From contig NZ_LHZA01000148.1 in assembly GCF_001580535.1 (NCBI RefSeq), positions 1-64,000 on the forward strand: a stretch of 64,000 nucleotides of DNA, given 5' to 3'. Source of the stretch: Acetobacter cerevisiae. GTDB taxonomy: Bacteria; Pseudomonadota; Alphaproteobacteria; Acetobacterales; Acetobacteraceae. Under the pieces are notes generated by a model, which was not told the DNA's origin, did no database searches, and was given only the letters and a program-made list of their open reading frames with translations. Made by a program: the position numbers and the translations under genes. Below, in pieces: positions 34,206 to 63,214 of this stretch. Each line of letters starts with the position of its first letter. Position 1 is the first letter of the stretch.

Positions 34206-34279
34206 CGTAGGGTGGAGCAGTTCGGTAGCTCGCTTGGCTCATAACCAAGAGGTCGCAGGTTCAAGTCCTGCCCCTGCAA
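34206..34279 (+). tRNA. Initiator tRNA-fMet (anticodon CAT)
   Basis: The cloverleaf can be folded by eye. The acceptor arms CGTAGGG and CCCTGCA pair with the C1 x A72 mismatch that marks initiator tRNAs. The anticodon loop is in GGCTCATAACC, and the T-arm is GCAGG-TTCAAGT-CCTGC. CCA is not encoded; the sequence continues AAG. The tRNA marks the left border of the prophage, and its 3' end is the likely attachment core. Confidence 0.93.
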
Positions 34280-36405: not shown

Positions 36406-36864
36406 TCAGTACTCGCACCGGGCGTTGACGGTGACGGCTGTAGCGTTCCCGTCTGCACGTTCCACGGACAAAGCCGAGGCGTCAGTAAGGCCATAAAAAA
36501 CGTAATATGTTCCGGGGAATACGGGCTGCGCGGCACCAGAGCCCCCCTGCTGCACCTGCACAGTGGTGTCTGTGTTGTTGGCAATCGTCATCTGTTTGCA
36601 GGACTGGGCGGGGAATGGCGTGTAGCTGGCGGATGTGGAGATGCTGAGGTTTGCGCCGCCGGTGAAAGTGGGGGAGACGGGAGAAATGGTCGATGAACCA
36701 CCACTGCCCCCAGAGCCAGACCCGCCAAGTATTACAACAAGTGGGTTTTTGTCCGTTCCTGTGCGCTGCCCATACTTGAACAGCTCAACAGGAGCGGCTG
36801 CCTGCGTCTGGGCAAGGGCCGGAGTGGCAATAAAAAGGGAAGCGGCAAGCAAAAGCAATCGCAT
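36406..36864 (-). CDS. Secreted phage protein with Sec signal peptide
   Basis: A 152-aa protein that begins with a clear Sec signal (MRLLLLAASLFIATPALAQ, cleavage after ALA). The mature part has a Gly/Ser-rich linker (GGSGSGGSGGSS), then a beta-rich domain with two Cys that could form a disulfide. A signal peptide is unexpected for a virion protein. It is the first gene of the leftward lysis transcript. It could be a lysogeny-expressed surface factor or a periplasmic lysis helper. Confidence 0.6.
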   Translation of the reverse strand: MRLLLLAASLFIATPALAQTQAAAPVELFKYGQRTGTDKNPLVVILGGSGSGGSGGSSTISPVSPTFTGGANLSISTSASYTPFPAQSCKQMTIANNTDTTVQVQQGGSGAAQPVFPGTYYVFYGLTDASALSVERADGNATAVTVNARCEY

Positions 36865-36950: not shown

Positions 36951-37017
36951 GGAGAAAGGGGTTGCCTATTTCTCAAACGGCAGGAATCAATCTTCCCTTT
37001 AAAAGGAGAAGAATCTT

Positions 37018-37281
37018 ATGCCCCAGATTACATCAGAGTGGATATTTGGAGCATTATGCGTATTAATTTACGCAGTTTATTATGCAGGAAAGAAAATAGA
37101 AAAAGCCATATTCGATGTTCAGGTTGAAATATCCTGCATGGACAAGAACATGCGAGACATTTTTTATGACAGAATGACTGGCAATGCCTTAGAAAATATA
37201 AATAGCAGTATTATGGATTTACAAAGCAAAGTTGAAAATATTAACAATAAAATTGATCCCCCTTTTAGATCTCTCCCTTGA
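37018..37281 (+). CDS. AT-rich accessory (moron) gene: membrane-anchored coiled-coil protein
   Basis: An 87-aa protein with one N-terminal membrane helix (about 7-25, WIFGALCVLIYAVYYAG) and a polar helical tail with Asn-rich heptads (ENINSSIMDLQSKVENINNK). It has a strong Shine-Dalgarno (AAAGGAGAAG) and lies opposite to the late operon. Base composition is far more AT-rich than its neighbours, which suggests recent acquisition. The function is unknown; superinfection exclusion is one option. Confidence 0.65.
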   Translation: MPQITSEWIFGALCVLIYAVYYAGKKIEKAIFDVQVEISCMDKNMRDIFYDRMTGNALENINSSIMDLQSKVENINNKIDPPFRSLP

Positions 37282-37391: not shown

Positions 37392-37682
37392 TCAGGTATT
37401 GCCTTCTGCCTTGTCGGCCAGCCGCTCGGCGACGGCGCGAAGGGCCAGCCGCTCACCCTCGTTCATGGCTCGCCACATGCGGACCAAGGAGCGCTCATTA
37501 TCAGTCAATTCCTCACCCTCATCTAAGGCGTGAGCGGAGAGCGAGAGATATACACTCTCTTCAAGTCTCTGAACGATTTCCGCATTCATGGAGTGTGAGC
37601 GTAAATCAGCCTGTGCCTTGAGATTATCAAGGAGGGCACGTGGCATACGCAGGGTGATCGGTACTCTTCGTTCATCGCTCAT
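37392..37682 (-). CDS. Mnt-like ribbon-helix-helix repressor
   Basis: A 96-aa DNA-binding protein. The N-terminal RHH domain VPITLRMPRALLDNLKAQAD is followed by SMNAEIVQRLEE and closely parallels P22 Mnt and Arc. A C-terminal extension of about 45 residues (DNERSLVRMWRAMNEGERLAL) may tetramerise as in Mnt. The ATG at 37682 was chosen because GGAG lies 6 nt upstream. It is divergent from an Arc-like and an antirepressor gene. It probably represses the antirepressor promoter and maintains lysogeny. Confidence 0.8.
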   Translation of the reverse strand: MSDERRVPITLRMPRALLDNLKAQADLRSHSMNAEIVQRLEESVYLSLSAHALDEGEELTDNERSLVRMWRAMNEGERLALRAVAERLADKAEGNT

Positions 37683-37718
37683 GATGACTCCATAAACCAA
37701 ATTGACTGCATTTTCCAG

Positions 37719-37769
37719 TTGACAACCAAAATGGTGTCATGCCTTATGGATGTGCAACCATTATGGTTG
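37719..37769. promoter_or_regulatory. Divergent control region with Mnt/Arc-type operators
   Basis: A plus-strand TTGACA at 37719-37724 begins inside one operator-like site (CAACCAAAATGGTG, 37723-37736). A better palindrome, CAACCAT-T-ATGGTTG, spans 37755-37769 between the promoter and the arc-like start. A -10 would fall near 37742-37748, between the two. Binding of RHH dimers here would control antirepressor expression. Confidence 0.65.
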
Positions 37770-37782
37770 GATGGAGGAAAAA

Positions 37783-37971
37783 TTGAGAACCGGGACGCAA
37801 ATGAAAATACGCCTGCCCCCCGAAGTGCATGCGCACGTTAAGGAAATGGCAAGTCGACAAGAGCGCAGCCTTAACGGGCACATCGTCTTCTTGCTTCGGC
37901 AGGAAATGGAAAAAGAAAAGGCGTCAGGCCCAGCCGTAGGAAGCAAACCTGACGCCTCTGACAGTGAATAA
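37783..37971 (+). CDS. Arc-like ribbon-helix-helix protein
   Basis: A 62-aa RHH protein: MKIRLPPEVHAHVKEMASRQ then RSLNGHIVFLLRQEME, matching the Arc fold in length and spacing. The TTG at 37783 is the likely start because GGAGG lies 5 nt upstream; ATG codons at 37750 and 37801 are alternatives. It precedes the antirepressor by 12 bp and overlaps its Shine-Dalgarno with its stop region, the same arc-ant arrangement as in P22. Confidence 0.72.
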   Translation: MRTGTQMKIRLPPEVHAHVKEMASRQERSLNGHIVFLLRQEMEKEKASGPAVGSKPDASDSE

Positions 37972-37983
37972 GGAAACACTGAT

Positions 37984-38799
37984 ATGAGTTCTATTACCAC
38001 AACATCGGCCCCAAATTCTAGCCCAATGATGTCCAGCAAGGAAATTGCTGAACTGACAGGCAAGCGGCACGATAACGTAGTGCGCGACATCAAAGACATG
38101 GTTTCGCAGATTTTAGGCCATTCCTCAGATTTGAGGAATGAACAAATTCAAGGAGTTACGGTAGAAAAAGACCATCGTGGCTTCATCAAGGTTATCCACC
38201 TCGACCACAGCCACACCATTACGCTCATCACTGGTTACGATGCCCGGCAGCGCAAGAGGGTGGTGGACCGCTGGCTTGAGCTTGAAGCTAAACCAGCCAT
38301 CGCCCCCGAAACCCCCGAAATGCTAGCCTTCCGTGCTATCACGGCTTTGCAGGGCAAGCTGGAAGTGATCGAGGAGCAGGCCAAGTTACAGGCGGCTATG
38401 CTTGAGGCGGCACAACCCAAGGCTGCCGCGCTGGACGCAATCTCAGAAGCGGAAGGCGATATCGGAGTGCGGGATGCCGGGAGGGAGTTAGGCGTCGGCG
38501 TGTCTAAGGTGGTTGCATTTCTGCTGGATCACAAATGGGCCTGCCGTGAAGGCGAGAAAAAGAAAAAGCTCCGTCCCGCACATTATGGTCTGTCGCAAAA
38601 GTATTGCCGCCTTGTGCCAAAGGCCTACCCGGACCGCCATACTGGAGAGACCTGCATCGGCCACGACTTCAAGATTACGACCCGCGGCCTCGCCCGTCTG
38701 GCCATCCTGCTCTGCGGCACCAACTCGGAACCAGCCCGGCGACTGAACGGCATGAAGGAGAAAGGTGCGCCTGTCCCTTTTGCCAAAACGCCAGCGTAA
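37984..38799 (+). CDS. Phage antirepressor (Rha-type N-domain, KilAC-type C-domain)
   Basis: A 271-aa protein. The N-terminal Rha/regulatory domain has MSSKEIAELTGKRHDNVVRDI and YDARQRKRVVDRWLELE. After a helical linker comes a KilAC/ANT-type domain with DIGVRDAGRELGVGVSKVV and HDFKITTRGLARLAILL. Such proteins inactivate the prime repressor and trigger induction. It is co-transcribed with the Arc-like gene; AAGGAAA lies before the ATG. Confidence 0.8.
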   Translation: MSSITTTSAPNSSPMMSSKEIAELTGKRHDNVVRDIKDMVSQILGHSSDLRNEQIQGVTVEKDHRGFIKVIHLDHSHTITLITGYDARQRKRVVDRWLELEAKPAIAPETPEMLAFRAITALQGKLEVIEEQAKLQAAMLEAAQPKAAALDAISEAEGDIGVRDAGRELGVGVSKVVAFLLDHKWACREGEKKKKLRPAHYGLSQKYCRLVPKAYPDRHTGETCIGHDFKITTRGLARLAILLCGTNSEPARRLNGMKEKGAPVPFAKTPA

Positions 38800-38815
38800 G
38801 TGCCGTAGTGGCCAG

Positions 38816-38833
38816 CCACCCCTTCGGGGGTGG
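38816..38833 (+). terminator. Perfect UUCG hairpin after the antirepressor gene
   Basis: CCACCCC-TTCG-GGGGTGG is a 7-bp stem with an extra-stable tetraloop, 17 bp after the antirepressor stop. There is no T-run, so it may act as an mRNA stabiliser, a weak terminator or a block before the small gene at 38850. Confidence 0.5.
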
Positions 38834-38849
38834 CAACGCTGGCGGGAAG

Positions 38850-39023
38850 ATGAATTGCTACACCCTCGCGTCAAACCTTGGCCTGACACTGCGTGTCGTG
38901 GCGGATATGGAAGAAGGGAAGCTCCCGTCGCCAATGGCGCGGGAATATCTGCAAGCTGGCGCAAGAGCCATCATGCAGATGTGGCGCGATCTGGAAGAGC
39001 AGGAGCAAAAAGCCATAGCCTAA
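38850..39023 (+). CDS. Small phage hypothetical protein
   Basis: A 57-aa helical protein (MNCYTLASNLGLTLRVVADM; MWRDLEEQEQKAIA at the end). A GTG at 38808 in the same frame is an alternative start inside the hairpin region. It follows the antirepressor on the same strand. Function unknown. Confidence 0.5.
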   Translation: MNCYTLASNLGLTLRVVADMEEGKLPSPMAREYLQAGARAIMQMWRDLEEQEQKAIA

Positions 39024-39066
39024 GAAGACCCTACCCCCGCGCCGCTACTCTGTGGTATGTGGGGGT

Positions 39067-39333
39067 ATGGTTCTGCTCTACGTCGTCGCGGCATTCGTGT
39101 TCTTTATGTGGTGGGTGCGGGGTAGTATTTGGCCTGCGCTTCCTCTTCCTATCCTTTTGGTCCTTATTGAATACGTTTCCTGCAAGGATCAGGGGCGTCC
39201 CGACCCACCTGGAGCCTTGATATTCCTTGTGGCGATAGGGGCAGCATCCTTCATCCCATATGCGGTCAAGCGCCACCGAGCCCGGCAGTTCGACCGGATG
39301 ATAAATGGCGTCACTTTTTTGGGTAAGGATTAG
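39067..39333 (+). CDS. Small phage membrane protein at the P22 sieA position
   Basis: An 88-aa protein with about three hydrophobic segments (VLLYVVAAFVFFMWW; PLPILLVLIEYV; ALIFLVAIGAASFIPY) and a basic C-terminus. It lies between the gp16-like gene and the immunity module, where P22 carries sieA for superinfection exclusion. There is no sequence proof of that role. Its end overlaps the convergent gp16-like gene by 23 bp. Confidence 0.55.
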   Translation: MVLLYVVAAFVFFMWWVRGSIWPALPLPILLVLIEYVSCKDQGRPDPPGALIFLVAIGAASFIPYAVKRHRARQFDRMINGVTFLGKD

Positions 39334-41785
39334 CCAGCATATTGTCCAAATAGTTCAGTGTCTTATCTTTTGTGATAGCGGCTCTTGCTGCCGCTCTTCT
39401 TGCGGCAGCGTCTGCCAGCGTTTTCCCGGCTGCGGCGGCCAGCAGTCCGCCATCCCAGCCTCCCGTTAAAGCCCCTCCCAAACCAACGCCAGCAGCCCCG
39501 GCTATTTTTGCAGATGCGCCCTGTGCCATATCCAGCATCTTGCTGTTGGTAAACAAATTGACGTTTGTGTCAGAACCCCTTGCTTTCCCAAGGTCCTTTC
39601 GGGCCTCAAGCCGGAAATCATCGCGCAGATCTTCGAGCGCCTGAAGTTGCTCGTCCGTAACAGCATCAGAATCCCGAACGCCGGGCTTCATCCGGTTTCG
39701 CCTGAGCGTTTTAACGTATGTGTCCAGTCTATTAAGAACCACATCCCCATTCGAGTTTGTCAGGTTCGCAGCCTGCAAATGGCGCATTGCATCAATCGGG
39801 CGGCTCAGCTCTTCGTATTGCTGTAAATAGCGGTCAAACCCCGGAGCCCCGGAATTAATAGCATCCGTGACAGTTGGCTTGAGGTCCAGCAACTGGGAAG
39901 CCGCTGCCTGCCCATCGCTGGCGGTGCCCCGTGCACGCGGAGCCACCATATCCCCCATGAATTTGCGAACGTTCCACAGTTTGCCGGGCATCGCCAGACC
40001 GTCCTTATCCGCAACGGCATTCACGGATTTCAGGACGCTTATCAAAGGCTGCTGAACCGTTTCTCGCCCTGCATTGTCGTCAATCAACCGAGCAAGGTGT
40101 TGCCTGATAGGCGTTACATCCACAGGCTGCTCATCACTGAAAGCCGCCTCACGGTGCTGCACCTCAGCCGCATTTCTGGCTGCTTCCGCCGCCTCAAGCT
40201 GTTCTGGTGTGCCGATCACCTTTTGAGCATATGCATTTCGAGCCGCCGAATTTTGCTGTTCCAGCGCCGTAAACAGGTTGGGATTGGCTGCCCGACGCTG
40301 CCGCTCAATAAGGGCAATGCCTGGGTTCCCTGTAGCCTGAGATGCCGTAAGTCGAACACCCGGAATTTTTGACTCAACAAGCTGAACTGGGCCGCCTTTT
40401 TGGGAATCTTCCAGAATAGTCTGCGCCAGCTTTTCAGCATCTTGCGGCTTACTGAAAAGCCCCAGTTTGATTGCTTCAGGGGGAACTTGTGTTGCGGTCT
40501 GCGCTTCGCCAGCCTCTCCCTCTGCGGTTTTTTCCCCAGTAATCCCGGCTGTATCCGGCGCACTGCTTGAAGCCGCCTCCGTCGCCGCAGAAGGAGCTTC
40601 TCTGCTGGCGGCAGCAAGACTGGCCGCATCTCCTTCAAGCGGCGGGGCAAGGCGGTTTACTACGGACGATGCCGCGTTTCCAAGTTTGCGGCCAGCATAC
40701 CCTAAAGCGGCCCCGGCACCCTCAAACATGGGCACTCCAAGCGCGCCGGCCCCAGCGCCCCACCAAGGGTTTTCACCCTCCATTTTTGCCAGTGCGCCAC
40801 CCTGTATCGCGCCACTTGCCATGCGGGTGCCGAGGCCGCCATTGCCTACTAAAAGATTAGTCCCGGCTTGAACGGCGCGTCCAGCAGTGCCGCCCAATGC
40901 CGCTGCCGCCTCTCCTCCTGCCGCCGCAAGAAGTGGGTTGCCGATCATGGCACCCATAACAGCAGCTTCCGTACCGGCTAACGCCTTGCCTGCGGGAACG
41001 GCATAGGGGTGCTGCGCTGCTATTTTCTTATCCTGCGCATCAGCAGCCGCACGTCTTGCGTCAAAGTCCAGACTGGTCCCTGCCAAGGCATGCTTTAGCC
41101 CCGGTATCTTGCTGGCGACAAATAGCGCCCCACGATGAAGTTCATTCTGCGCGGCCTCGTCTGCACTGCGGCCAAACTCCGCCAGATTCCCAAGCCATGT
41201 GCCTTGATGGGCATGGGCACGCATAGGGAGAGAACTATCTTCTTCATGGCCGAAGACATTATCAAATTCAGCCGTGTCAGCTTTTTTTTGCGCAGGATGG
41301 CTATGACCCTCATATGAGTCGCCGAACATTTTATCAAATTCTTCAGTGCCAGGCGGGGCGCTTTCTTTCCTATCTGGTGAAACCGAAGTCCCCGGCCCCG
41401 CAAAGGGATCATCGCCAGACTGTAGCCCAGCATACTGCGTTGCGACCTTTTGAGGATACGCCATAGTTTCAGGGTTCCCCCATTTGGTGCGGTCTGTTCC
41501 GCTATTGTAGGCACGTAAGGCATCGGGAACATCCCCGTATCGGTCCAGATTTTCTCGCAGGACTCTCGCGCCGCCATAGATAGACTGCACCGGGTCGTGT
41601 GGGTCTATGCCAAGGCTTTGTGCAGTGGCTGGCATGATCTGCATGTGGCCCACAGCCCCAGCGCGGCTTTTCACATCCGGATCTCCGCCGGGGTCTTCCA
41701 CCATATGCACGGCGCGCAGCAGAGTAGGGTCTACGCCCCAATATTTCCCAGCACGCTCGTAATGCTGGTCAAGATTATCTGCCAC
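39311..41785 (-). CDS. Ejection protein with N-terminal lytic transglycosylase (P22 gp16 position)
   Basis: An 824-aa virion protein ejected with the DNA. Residues 1-120 are an SLT domain: LLRAVHMVED with the catalytic Glu near residue 30, AVGHMQIMPATAQSLGI, and ALRAYNSG. A linker carries two EFD-MFG/EFD-VFG repeats. A long Gly/Ala-rich hydrophobic region (about 260-370) could insert into membranes. The C-terminal half is helical. P22 gp16 lacks this transglycosylase; the fusion would let it cut the wall during injection. It overlaps the next upstream gene by 11 bp. Confidence 0.75.
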   Translation of the reverse strand: MADNLDQHYERAGKYWGVDPTLLRAVHMVEDPGGDPDVKSRAGAVGHMQIMPATAQSLGIDPHDPVQSIYGGARVLRENLDRYGDVPDALRAYNSGTDRTKWGNPETMAYPQKVATQYAGLQSGDDPFAGPGTSVSPDRKESAPPGTEEFDKMFGDSYEGHSHPAQKKADTAEFDNVFGHEEDSSLPMRAHAHQGTWLGNLAEFGRSADEAAQNELHRGALFVASKIPGLKHALAGTSLDFDARRAAADAQDKKIAAQHPYAVPAGKALAGTEAAVMGAMIGNPLLAAAGGEAAAALGGTAGRAVQAGTNLLVGNGGLGTRMASGAIQGGALAKMEGENPWWGAGAGALGVPMFEGAGAALGYAGRKLGNAASSVVNRLAPPLEGDAASLAAASREAPSAATEAASSSAPDTAGITGEKTAEGEAGEAQTATQVPPEAIKLGLFSKPQDAEKLAQTILEDSQKGGPVQLVESKIPGVRLTASQATGNPGIALIERQRRAANPNLFTALEQQNSAARNAYAQKVIGTPEQLEAAEAARNAAEVQHREAAFSDEQPVDVTPIRQHLARLIDDNAGRETVQQPLISVLKSVNAVADKDGLAMPGKLWNVRKFMGDMVAPRARGTASDGQAAASQLLDLKPTVTDAINSGAPGFDRYLQQYEELSRPIDAMRHLQAANLTNSNGDVVLNRLDTYVKTLRRNRMKPGVRDSDAVTDEQLQALEDLRDDFRLEARKDLGKARGSDTNVNLFTNSKMLDMAQGASAKIAGAAGVGLGGALTGGWDGGLLAAAAGKTLADAAARRAAARAAITKDKTLNYLDNMLANPYPKK

Positions 41786-54019: not shown

Positions 54020-55366
54020 CTATGCGCTCATCCAGCCGGTTCCGGTGGTGGGGATTTGCAGGCGGGGCTTGACTGGTTGTCTCAGCATATCGCCTTCTCG
54101 GTCGCGCAGTCCGACAGCCAGATAGCGGAATGCGTCAGCATAATCTGAAGCCCAGTCATGCAGCGGCTTGTCACGGAAAACCTTATTCTTGTCATCCCAT
54201 GACTTGCGATACTGCTCGAGCGCATCAATGCCGCGCTGGCACTTTTTTTTGTCGAACCTGCAACGAGGCAACAGAGCTCGAGCTGCGCTGATACCGTCAT
54301 CAACGCCAGTCCGCGGCAATATCCTCATCGGCTTGACGCCCAAACTGCGCAAGATATCAATTCGCCGCTTGCCGGTTCCCACATCACCATTTTCCGCGTC
54401 ATGCGGTCCGATATGCTGCTTGTAGGTATAGGGCTTTTCCGAAAGCTGCTTGGCGTACCAATCAAGCCCCATGCCAGAGCCTGCAATGCAATCAATCACA
54501 GACACTTCCGGTCCGCGCTGCTGGGCAATCCAGATGACGGTGCTGTCGCCATAACCAAGATCCCACGCCGTGACGCACGGCAATGACGGATCATATGGTA
54601 CGTCGCTAATCCTCCCTGACTCATATAGCGCCTTCATGAGCTTGCCGTAGTAACTGCCCTGAATGGCCGCATCGAAGGAGCAGTCATATTCCTGCTCATA
54701 TTTCGCGTTGCCGTCGTCTTCGCCATACTGCGCCACAAGCTGTCTCTTTTCTGCCGCCAGTTGTTCGGGCGTGAAGCGCCCTGTCTTTTCAACGTTCGAG
54801 ACCTCGCAGAACCAACCTGGTTCGTCGCGCATGGCATCGAAGAACGTCTTCGCATGGTTGCGCCCACGCGGTGTGGTGATGAATATTGCCCACCCACCAT
54901 TCTCCAGAAGGATAGGAGAAAGGAACGCCCATGCTGATGGGTTAGCTAATGCCCATTCTGAAAACACCACTCCGATTGGCGTTGACCCCACAAGGCTATT
55001 GAAGTTGTCAGACCCCACGACCTGCCATGTCGATCCGTTGATAAACCGGATGAACATTTCCTGCTCTTTGGTCGTGGCGCGGATCTCTGCTGGGAAGGCC
55101 TCATCAATGCGCCGGCGTCCCGTGTGGGGGTTCACCGCGTCCCAGATCGCTTTTCGTGCTTGGCTAGCTTCTGGAAGCATGTGCCAGTAGTTGCCGACCT
55201 TCGTGAGGGCAGACACTGCGGCCCAGTTTAGAGCTACATCATCCTTGCCCCATCGGCGGTGGGCAACTTCGTAGGCGCGCCTGCCGCCATTCTCGAGATA
55301 GGTCCAGAGAGGCATTTGGCAATCACGAGGATGCCAACCATACGCAGGAATTTGGAGTTCAGCCAT
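54020..55366 (-). CDS. Terminase large subunit
   Basis: Packaging motor ATPase and nuclease of 448 aa. The ATPase has an atypical Walker A-like HRRWGKDDVALN near residue 37, Walker B region IGVVFSEWAL near residue 131 and the coupling TTPRGRNHAK. The RNase H-like nuclease has AWDLGYGDSTVIW near residue 270 and HDWASDYADAFRYLA near residue 418. It overlaps the small subunit gene by 8 bp. Confidence 0.88.
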   Translation of the reverse strand: MAELQIPAYGWHPRDCQMPLWTYLENGGRRAYEVAHRRWGKDDVALNWAAVSALTKVGNYWHMLPEASQARKAIWDAVNPHTGRRRIDEAFPAEIRATTKEQEMFIRFINGSTWQVVGSDNFNSLVGSTPIGVVFSEWALANPSAWAFLSPILLENGGWAIFITTPRGRNHAKTFFDAMRDEPGWFCEVSNVEKTGRFTPEQLAAEKRQLVAQYGEDDGNAKYEQEYDCSFDAAIQGSYYGKLMKALYESGRISDVPYDPSLPCVTAWDLGYGDSTVIWIAQQRGPEVSVIDCIAGSGMGLDWYAKQLSEKPYTYKQHIGPHDAENGDVGTGKRRIDILRSLGVKPMRILPRTGVDDGISAARALLPRCRFDKKKCQRGIDALEQYRKSWDDKNKVFRDKPLHDWASDYADAFRYLAVGLRDREGDMLRQPVKPRLQIPTTGTGWMSA

Positions 55367-62089: not shown

Positions 62090-62574
62090 TGACGAACACC
62101 CCCATCCGTACGGCCATGCGTACCCGGCTCGGTGACAGCGCCACCGCCTGGGACTACCGTTTCAGTGCGTGAGGGAGTCGGAAGCTCCTGACCGCAGTTG
62201 TTTTCTTTTCGAGAAGGTAAATCTAATGTCTCAAACTCAACCTTCCATTTCATTAAAACTTCTGTCTTTAGATCGGGAAGCTGAATCTGCTTCAAACGGT
62301 GAAGTAGAGTTAAAGATTGCTCTTGACGTATTTGGTCCAGAGTTTCCGGTGAAAGGAACTTTGACAGTTCTCGTTCCAGATCATGTGGTAAACACTCAGT
62401 TGCATAGCGGAGTGATGCAGCTACCCTCGTCAGTCGTTCGCCAAATTTACGCTGCATATTTTTCGGTACAGCAATCAGGCGTTGGTCCTGCCCTAAAGTA
62501 ATTAAATACCCGCACTCAATAGCTATGCGCCGGAAGAATTCTTTTTCTTTTGGCGTGTGGTTATTTTCGATCAC
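62086..62574 (-). CDS. Phage early protein of unknown function
   Basis: A 162-aa protein with a helical, charged body (TPKEKEFFRRIAIECGYLIT; RKFGERLTRVAASLRYATEC) and a disordered C-terminus rich in Thr, Gly and Pro. It starts with GTG after a very good AGGAGG and overlaps the cro-like stop (GTGA), so it belongs to the leftward early operon. A plausible plus-strand gene overlaps it entirely antisense. Confidence 0.6.
   Translation of the reverse strand: MIENNHTPKEKEFFRRIAIECGYLITLGQDQRLIAVPKNMQRKFGERLTRVAASLRYATECLPHDLERELSKFLSPETLDQIRQEQSLTLLHRLKQIQLPDLKTEVLMKWKVEFETLDLPSRKENNCGQELPTPSRTETVVPGGGAVTEPGTHGRTDGGVRQ
62226..62501 (+). CDS. Possible antisense-overlapping gene (91 aa)
   Basis: A 91-aa frame with AGAAGG 7-8 nt before the ATG and protein-like content (SISLKLLSLDREAESASNGE; ELKIALDVFGPEFPVKGTLT; a C-terminus with VVRQIYAAYF). 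It lies entirely within the oppositely oriented early gene. Either the minus-strand gene is the only true one, or both are used. Confidence 0.4.
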   Translation: MSQTQPSISLKLLSLDREAESASNGEVELKIALDVFGPEFPVKGTLTVLVPDHVVNTQLHSGVMQLPSSVVRQIYAAYFSVQQSGVGPALK

Positions 62575-62780
62575 GACCGCGCCTCCTGTGTGGCGGGGGT
62601 GCGCTTGAACAGGTCAGGGCGTAGTTCCTCGCGGGGGATGCCGGTGGCGGCTTCAAGCGCGACGATCCTGCGTTCTGGGACCTTGGTCCAGCGCAGAACC
62701 GATGAGTGGGATTTCAATCCCAACAGGCGGGCCACCTTTGCGGGGCCACCGACCCGATCAATTATTGTGCGTATGGTCAT
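62571..62780 (-). CDS. Cro-like regulator (YdaS-type HTH)
   Basis: A 69-aa protein with a compact HTH: IIDRVGGPAKVARLLGLKSH then SSVLRWTKVPERRIVALEAA. It is typical of small Cro/YdaS proteins, first gene of the leftward early operon and divergent from the cI-like gene. It has no clear Shine-Dalgarno. It should turn off the repressor during lytic growth. Confidence 0.75.
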   Translation of the reverse strand: MTIRTIIDRVGGPAKVARLLGLKSHSSVLRWTKVPERRIVALEAATGIPREELRPDLFKRTPATQEARS

Positions 62781-62872: not shown

Positions 62873-63214
62873 ATGAAGCAGACAATGGGACAGCGGCTTT
62901 CCGCTTTGAGAGAAGCCAAAGGTGTGAATCAAATAGACGTTGCTGAAGCCACCGGCTTGGGCCGCACTTTTTTGTCCATGCTTGAAAAAGACAAAAAGCA
63001 AGGAAGCATTGCCTCTCTGGCTGCTCTAGCTGATTTTTACCAGGTTTCCATAGACTATCTTTACCGTGGCGTTCTTCCGCCGGACGTCGCGCCTAACGTC
63101 CATGATGGTGCTGAGGAGGCTGCTTGGGTCGGCCTTTGGCGCGACATGAACGAGCCGCAACGACGAATGGTGCTGGCGATGATCAAAGCCGCCATCAACA
63201 GCAATGTCGCCTAA
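62873..63214 (+). CDS. CI-like prophage repressor without a peptidase domain
   Basis: A 113-aa protein. The N-terminal HTH_3 domain is MGQRLSALREAKGVNQIDVA then EATGLGRTFLSMLEKDKK and LAALADFYQVSIDYLYRG. The short C-terminal helical part (WRDMNEPQRRMVLAMIKAAI) may dimerise. No S24 autocleavage domain exists, so RecA-driven cleavage is unlikely and induction probably depends on the antirepressor. Divergent from the cro-like gene. Confidence 0.8.
   Translation: MKQTMGQRLSALREAKGVNQIDVAEATGLGRTFLSMLEKDKKQGSIASLAALADFYQVSIDYLYRGVLPPDVAPNVHDGAEEAAWVGLWRDMNEPQRRMVLAMIKAAINSNVA

Follow-up and report, generated by a model that had tools for sequence, protein, structure and literature searches.

We found that the window, a stretch of 64,000 nucleotides from a draft genome of Acetobacter cerevisiae, probably carries in its P22-type prophage an immI-type second immunity cassette (the 'ant moron'), a reading to which we give a probability of about 0.7. 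The cassette is inverted relative to the late genes, has operator-like sites linked to its Mnt-like repressor, and appears to encode an exchangeable C-terminal tail on that repressor. Support for this reading comes from sequence, comparison and predicted structure, and the operators are putative. What is new is the tail, which is apparently common to the Mnt-like repressor and the HTH main repressors of related phages. The genes and sites concerned are as follows.

36406-36864, next late gene beyond orf87, fibre-like by position only
37018-37281, plus strand, orf87, with a hydrophobic start and a coiled-coil-like rest; Pfam matches weak only
37392-37682, minus strand, Mnt-like RHH repressor gene, 96 aa; Pfam Arc PF03869, E 7e-8
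37404-37499, minus strand, C-terminal tail of the Mnt-like protein, about 32 residues, NERSLVRMWRAMNEGERLALRAVAERLADKAE
37694-37708, operator-like site O1, imperfect, a weaker third copy, AAACCAAATTGACTG
37723-37737, operator-like site O2, overlapping a TTGACA hexamer at 37719-37724, CAACCAAAATGGTGT
37755-37769, operator-like site O3, a perfect 7-1-7 dyad, CAACCATTATGGTTG
37783-37971, plus strand, Arc-like RHH gene, 62 aa, TTG start behind GGAGG
37984-38799, plus strand, antirepressor gene (ant), 271 aa, Rha domain and ANT/KilAC domain
38789-38844, plus strand, nested inverted repeat over the ant stop codon, with an 8-bp outer stem, an 8-bp inner stem and a TTCG loop
38850-39023, plus strand, orf57, small protein gene behind ant; no Pfam match
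39052-39333, plus strand, membrane protein gene (by hydropathy) in the place of sieA, 93 aa, convergent to the gp16-like gene
62571-62780, minus strand, Cro-like gene divergent from the main repressor; YdaS_toxin E 4e-9, P22_Cro E 5e-6 (below its cut-off)
62873-63214, plus strand, main (C-type) repressor, HTH, with a tail at 63113-63208

Positions 37392-38799 thus hold a leftward Mnt-like RHH gene, a divergent Arc-like RHH gene and an antirepressor of Rha and KilAC domains, as the original prediction had proposed from the letters, and the matches to PF03869, Phage_pRha and ANT/KilAC bear this out. The Arc-like gene matched PF03869 and HicB near E 1e-5 (the PF03869 figure being for a longer reading of the gene), and its TTG start at 37783, with GGAGG upstream, was picked by eye as the best start. 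Note that the labels Mnt and Arc are given by position and length, because BLAST places the Mnt-like protein of the window closer to P22 Arc (42% over 36 aa) than to P22 Mnt (26%). P22 mnt itself (L242 3020-3271) bears the label 'partition protein ATPase', which is also carried by the PHROG families matched by the RHH proteins of the window; this looks like a propagated misnomer. In the antirepressor, Phage_pRha matched residues 16-101 (E 3e-11) and ANT/KilAC residues 140-243 (E 5e-14), and the whole protein matched PHROG 63, anti-repressor Ant, at E 8e-32. BLAST gave no match to P22 Ant at E<=10 and a weak one to P22 Rha (E 1e-4), and the closest matches from cultured phages were below 60% identity. 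The antirepressors of other modules start with P22_AR_N or KilA-N domains and differ in their second domains, indicating that the antirepressor slot is mosaic.

The late genes of the prophage are of P22 type and run leftward from the terminase gene (54020-55366) to the gp16-like gene (39311-41785), comprising terminase, portal, scaffold, coat, head closure, gp14-, gp7-, gp20- and gp16-like genes (gp20 by position). The order onward from gp16 is membrane gene, orf57, ant, arc, the divergent mnt, orf87 and then the gene at 36406-36864, so that the module directly follows the gp16-like gene, in the interval up to the tail-gene place, which is the site of immI in P22 (16, sieA on the minus strand, orf59a minus, mnt minus, arc-ant plus, 9). 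The predicted P22 locus was therefore confirmed by the order of the late operon and by comparison with the P22 record. Because the late operon is read leftward, from terminase to gp16, the plus-strand arc and ant genes oppose it. The region between genes 16 and 9 is described as highly variable among P22-like phages in two papers (PMC2629481, PMC8022706).

Relatives were collected with two queries: the gp10-like protein against viral contigs gave 45 loci, including an identical contig, and the portal protein against 200 genomes of the family gave 8 matches including its own. The cultured phage phiAX1 (portal 84%) was added. Thirteen relatives could be read past gp16. An RHH gene or pair with an antirepressor was present there in six of them (L186, L188, G054, G085, G174 and phiAX1), and in all six ant points along the late genes, as it does in P22; the L188 and G174 cassettes yielded one RHH gene each, that of L188 by eye. 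The site was empty in three relatives (L183, G257, G009), occupied by other genes in two (L182, L187), and without any match in G037 and G070. In L223, a distant phage of P22 type, an RHH pair and a KilA-N-type antirepressor (by eye) lie among the ejection genes, again along the late genes. The window is therefore the only inverted case in this set, and the inversion that had been proposed holds. We found no description of an inverted immI or of a shared repressor tail in a literature search that covered subscription journals thinly. Apart from this site, Rha-type antirepressor genes lie upstream of terminase in L184 (1-888) and L183 (3-563), and the phage contig G254 has a second divergent RHH pair (L164 15100-15833) in addition to the one it already has. 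A tRNA-Met gene (34206-34279), a possible attachment site, adjoins the lysis-side end of the late operon.

The small membrane protein in the place of sieA was noted in the prediction alongside the module, and its place and orientation agree with P22. However, 39052-39333 gave no BLAST match to P22 SieA at E<=10, and the gene is not tied to the cassette. Specifically, a homologue next to gp16 and convergent to it was found by BLAST in 9 of 14 relatives (the readable ones except phiAX1, plus L185 and L189), three of which (L183, G257, G009) have no cassette. The membrane gene thus appears to belong to the gp16 neighbourhood, and the gene that accompanies the cassette is apparently orf87 instead, homologues of which stand beside antirepressors in L188 (38%) and L184 (70%), the latter upstream of terminase. 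No transmembrane segment was called in orf87 at the hydropathy cut-off used. In the window orf87 is on the mnt side, and in L188 it is between gp16 and the RHH gene; the order in the window is what would be expected if the cassette had turned as a unit.

The inverted repeat at 38789-38844 has a minimum free energy of -39.4 kcal/mol (z -2.2). Repeats of about 55 nt of this kind were seen at 9 of 23 antirepressor gene ends (aligned by eye), behind at least three types of second domain, and in further contigs found by pattern; one also follows an unrelated-looking frame in L138. None of the 16 pairs covaries, and the repeat was dropped as a candidate RNA structure. It folds well but lacks covariation, so that an RNA hairpin and a joint left by recombination are both possible readings. 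Its outer stem contains the ant stop codon and ends beside the orf57 start, which suggests translational coupling of the two genes. Small proteins resembling orf57 occur behind other antirepressors, and eight were aligned; the family members are 54-70 aa long, share an A-I-M-Q-x-W motif and follow antirepressors of several types.

Palindromic operators between the two RHH genes were also predicted. The candidate sites stand, and their sequence follows Mnt, but they number three and not two, with O1-O2-O3 centres 29 and 32 bp apart. The hexamer pair TTGACA-17-CCTTAT at O2 was read by eye and is absent from the output of the promoter scan, which called no promoter on the ant side. The perfect O3 sequence occurs once in the window, and sites with up to 3 mismatches occur at 5 places against 1.1 expected. 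The best dyad of the window was borderline against mononucleotide shuffles (p=0.056). Across 19 mnt-arc intergenic regions (excluding L109, and L127 as a duplicate of L008), Fisher's combined p of the best dyads was 5e-7, with p>0.1 in 7 of the 19, near-duplicates included. A search for dyads with a common half site was given up (shuffle p<=0.05 in 3 of 18 modules, 0.09 for the window); the P22 intergenic region gave one dyad in that test, at p 0.95.

Comparison between modules connects the sites to one of the two proteins. In 17 of the 19 modules (L128 and L223 dropped), the sharing of intergenic 7-mers correlated with Mnt RHH-domain identity (partial Mantel 0.43, p=0.0005), with no such correlation for Arc (0.07, p=0.26); the near-duplicate pairs L010/L069 and L002/L111 inflate the weight here, and linkage to mnt could contribute. 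The same is seen in single pairs. The window and L007 have Mnt 88% and Arc 27% identical, with a 7-mer sharing of 0.48 and an intergenic region 90% identical over 106 columns, and the L007 copy of O1, AAACCATATTGGTTG, is a better dyad than that of the window. The window and L004, with Arc 72% and Mnt 37% identical, have a 7-mer sharing of 0.04. The palindromes thus behave as putative Mnt operators.

The tail of the Mnt-like protein matched tail profile A1 at E 4e-17, and that of the main repressor matched the tail profile at E 4e-16, both sequences being members of A1. The two tails of the window are identical at 9 of 32 residues. In L002, the Mnt-like protein ends in a tail of the type seen on the main repressor. 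Profile matches were found in 13 of 200 genomes of the family (E<=0.01) and 14 of 49 of the genus (E<=0.001), the window counted in both. Of the 91 pairs formed by 14 tails, 29 had a raw identity of the 96-bp tail DNA above the reporting threshold of 0.72, including 15 of the 49 RHH-HTH pairs; in these 15 the tail DNA was 0.73-0.88 identical and the flanks 0.55-0.62. Identical codons exceeded the expectation from codon usage in 6 of 26 RHH-HTH pairs (p<0.02; p>0.02 in the other 20), and five RHH-HTH pairs with L071 shared fewer codons than expected. The tail DNA identity above that of the flanks, together with the shared codons, indicates that the tail moved between genes of both folds, and we conclude that this transfer was probably, at least in part, recent.

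Both repressor ends could be read in eleven phages (window, G247, G254, the A. syzygii contig, G253, G248, G256, G262, G085, G054 and phiAX1). The window, G254 and the A. syzygii contig have the tail on both repressors, and in G247 the main repressor has it while the second one shows a remnant. In none of these three phages, nor in G247, did the two tails belong to one subtype, the subtypes being our own labels; a rule to that effect was dropped, as such cases are too few among eleven phages. In phiAX1 and G054, main repressors with an S24 peptidase go with a tail-less Mnt.

AlphaFold2 predicted two helices at the end of each protein, at residues 61-72 and 75-94 in the Mnt-like protein (mean pLDDT 76, pTM 0.41) and at 79-91 and 94-112 in the main repressor (mean pLDDT 77, pTM 0.53), from shallow alignments of 9 and 5 sequences and with low pTM. 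The best Foldseek match of the Mnt-like model was Arc (1par, E 0.023), with none at E<=0.001. The main-repressor model matched best SinR in the SinR/SinI complex (1b0n, E 9e-5, 108 columns, rmsd 6.1), where many equally good matches span the HTH alone; a phage phi106 repressor/AimX entry ranked 18th. The C-terminal part of P22 Mnt is a tetramerisation coil, and the C-terminal hairpin of SinR multimerises. Considering the SinR match and the P22 Mnt coil, oligomerisation is the plain reading of the tail. On these models it is most probably a SinR-like hairpin for oligomerisation that can be exchanged and that recombination has carried between RHH and HTH genes.

We next consider what the module would do. 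The original prediction held that the main repressor lacks a peptidase domain, and indeed only HTH matches were found in 62873-63214, so that some other induction route is needed; it had put forward the module as possibly the principal one. For SOS control of the module, we scanned for GTTC-N7-GTTC, which we take to be the SOS box consensus. The window contains two exact boxes (33982 and 63263) against 1.2 expected, which is chance level, and none at the module; SOS control of the module was therefore dropped. According to published work, P22 Ant is not needed for P22 induction (PMC3121763), deletion of P22 immI lowers lysogeny (PMC11016777), and phiAX1 is induced by mitomycin C (PMC8566455); the word 'repressor' is absent from the main text of an Acetobacter prophage survey (PMC9379143). 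The module is as likely to act at infection as in induction. In a lysogen, the Mnt-like protein, multimerised through its tail on the three sites, would shut the arc-ant promoter, and the Arc-like protein would keep the operon in check after its activation. Antirepressor produced while Mnt has yet to accumulate, as at infection, or on loss of Mnt would inactivate an HTH repressor and favour lysis. As a consequence of the inversion, late transcription would cross arc-ant antisense, and the ant transcript would oppose gp16.

Other explanations of the cassette were weighed against this one. It may be a regulator of late transcription into the tail genes, or a decaying moron, and not an immunity switch; PMC2629481 states that the ant moron of P22 may affect the tailspike level and that ant morons are often found degraded, and the O1 of the window is an imperfect site. 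None of the three reading frames is interrupted, however, and the operators are conserved with L007, and we consider this explanation unlikely. That the inversion is an assembly artefact seems highly improbable. It is known from one lineage only, the draft genome is in 157 contigs, and the whole stretch was found in none of the 48 other genomes of the genus (49 with its own), but an identical 30-kb IMG/VR contig, which may be of the same strain, has the same gene order, and no convincing long inverted repeats flank the cassette. The best-placed pair (36982-36997 and 38844-38859, around orf87 to ant) is 16 nt long and 81% identical; it is probably due to chance, as the stretch has 16 pairs of this sort and this one contains a ribosome-binding site. 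For want of a convincing pair, inversion via flanking repeats was likewise dropped.

With regard to the tail, a partner, either the KilAC domain of the antirepressor or orf57, might bind it and thereby inactivate both the second and the main repressor. Phages with the tail on both repressors, or in G247 with a tail and a remnant, would fit this, as would ANT within about 2 kb of the tail gene in 4 of 13 tail genomes of the family (ANT at all in 24 of 200) and the SinR/SinI pair, a generally known precedent for a releasing partner that the structure match of the main repressor brings to mind. However, of the 11 modules whose Mnt has a tail, 5 carry KilAC downstream of arc (window, L002, L012, L080, L097; not L009, L010, L069, L096, L109, L111), and of the 6 whose Mnt lacks one, 2 do so (L016, L128; not L005, L007, L008, phiAX1), a count that excludes L014 (weak tail) and L004 (split). 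This is no association, and KilAC was rejected as the partner. In addition, the two tails of one phage are of different subtypes, and orf57, despite a weak profile match (E 0.003), had an hhalign probability of only 9% against the tail profiles and was rejected as a tail homologue. We therefore do not favour release through the tail and regard it as doubtful; its broader form, in which the tail of about 32 residues is a portable release handle on unrelated folds, one antagonist opens main and second immunity, and subtypes set the pairing, is more doubtful still. It is quite improbable that the shared tail reflects convergence or an ordinary ending of short repressors. Loosely similar endings with a W-R motif were seen on many HTH repressors, and the codon tests were mostly not significant, but the RHH proteins L009 and L010 each agree with the HTH protein L011 at 31 of 32 residues, the identity of the flanking DNA drops to background, and the profile matched 1 of 385 genomes of the class, the window's own (E<=1e-4), so that convergence is already weakened.

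If the immI reading is correct, Acetobacter phages use the logic of immI with an antirepressor of another kind and in reversed orientation to the late genes, and its operators can be assigned by comparison to one of the two RHH proteins. A tail common to repressors of the RHH and HTH folds would mean that phages combine parts for DNA binding with parts for oligomerisation (or release) as independent modules. The tail is also a short peptide on which the determinants of repressor assembly and of antirepressor specificity can be tested.

Among known systems, the Gifsy prophages of Salmonella share with this phage a small repressor without a peptidase and a separate antirepressor, as described in PMC3121763; there the antirepressor is LexA-controlled, whereas the module of the window has no exact GTTC-N7-GTTC box. 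Acetobacter phage phiAX1 (LC644973), whose portal is 84% identical, also has an RHH pair and an antirepressor after gp16, but in P22 orientation, with a KilA-N antirepressor, an S24-peptidase main repressor and a Mnt without the tail. SinR/SinI of Bacillus subtilis shares with the main repressor an HTH followed by a C-terminal helical hairpin (predicted here), a structural likeness from Foldseek; in the window phage the hairpin is also predicted on RHH proteins. P22 immI is the textbook switch known from enterobacterial phages, and the window shares with it the site between gene 16 and the tail gene, the divergent RHH pair, the antirepressor behind arc, and a convergent membrane gene adjoining 16. 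It differs from P22 in that arc-ant runs against the late genes and not along them, in an antirepressor of Rha and KilAC domains without detectable similarity to P22 Ant, and in an arc-ant gap of 12 nt, which leaves no room there for sar, compared with 68 nt holding sar in P22. It also has three operator-like sites of one kind and a different Mnt tail.
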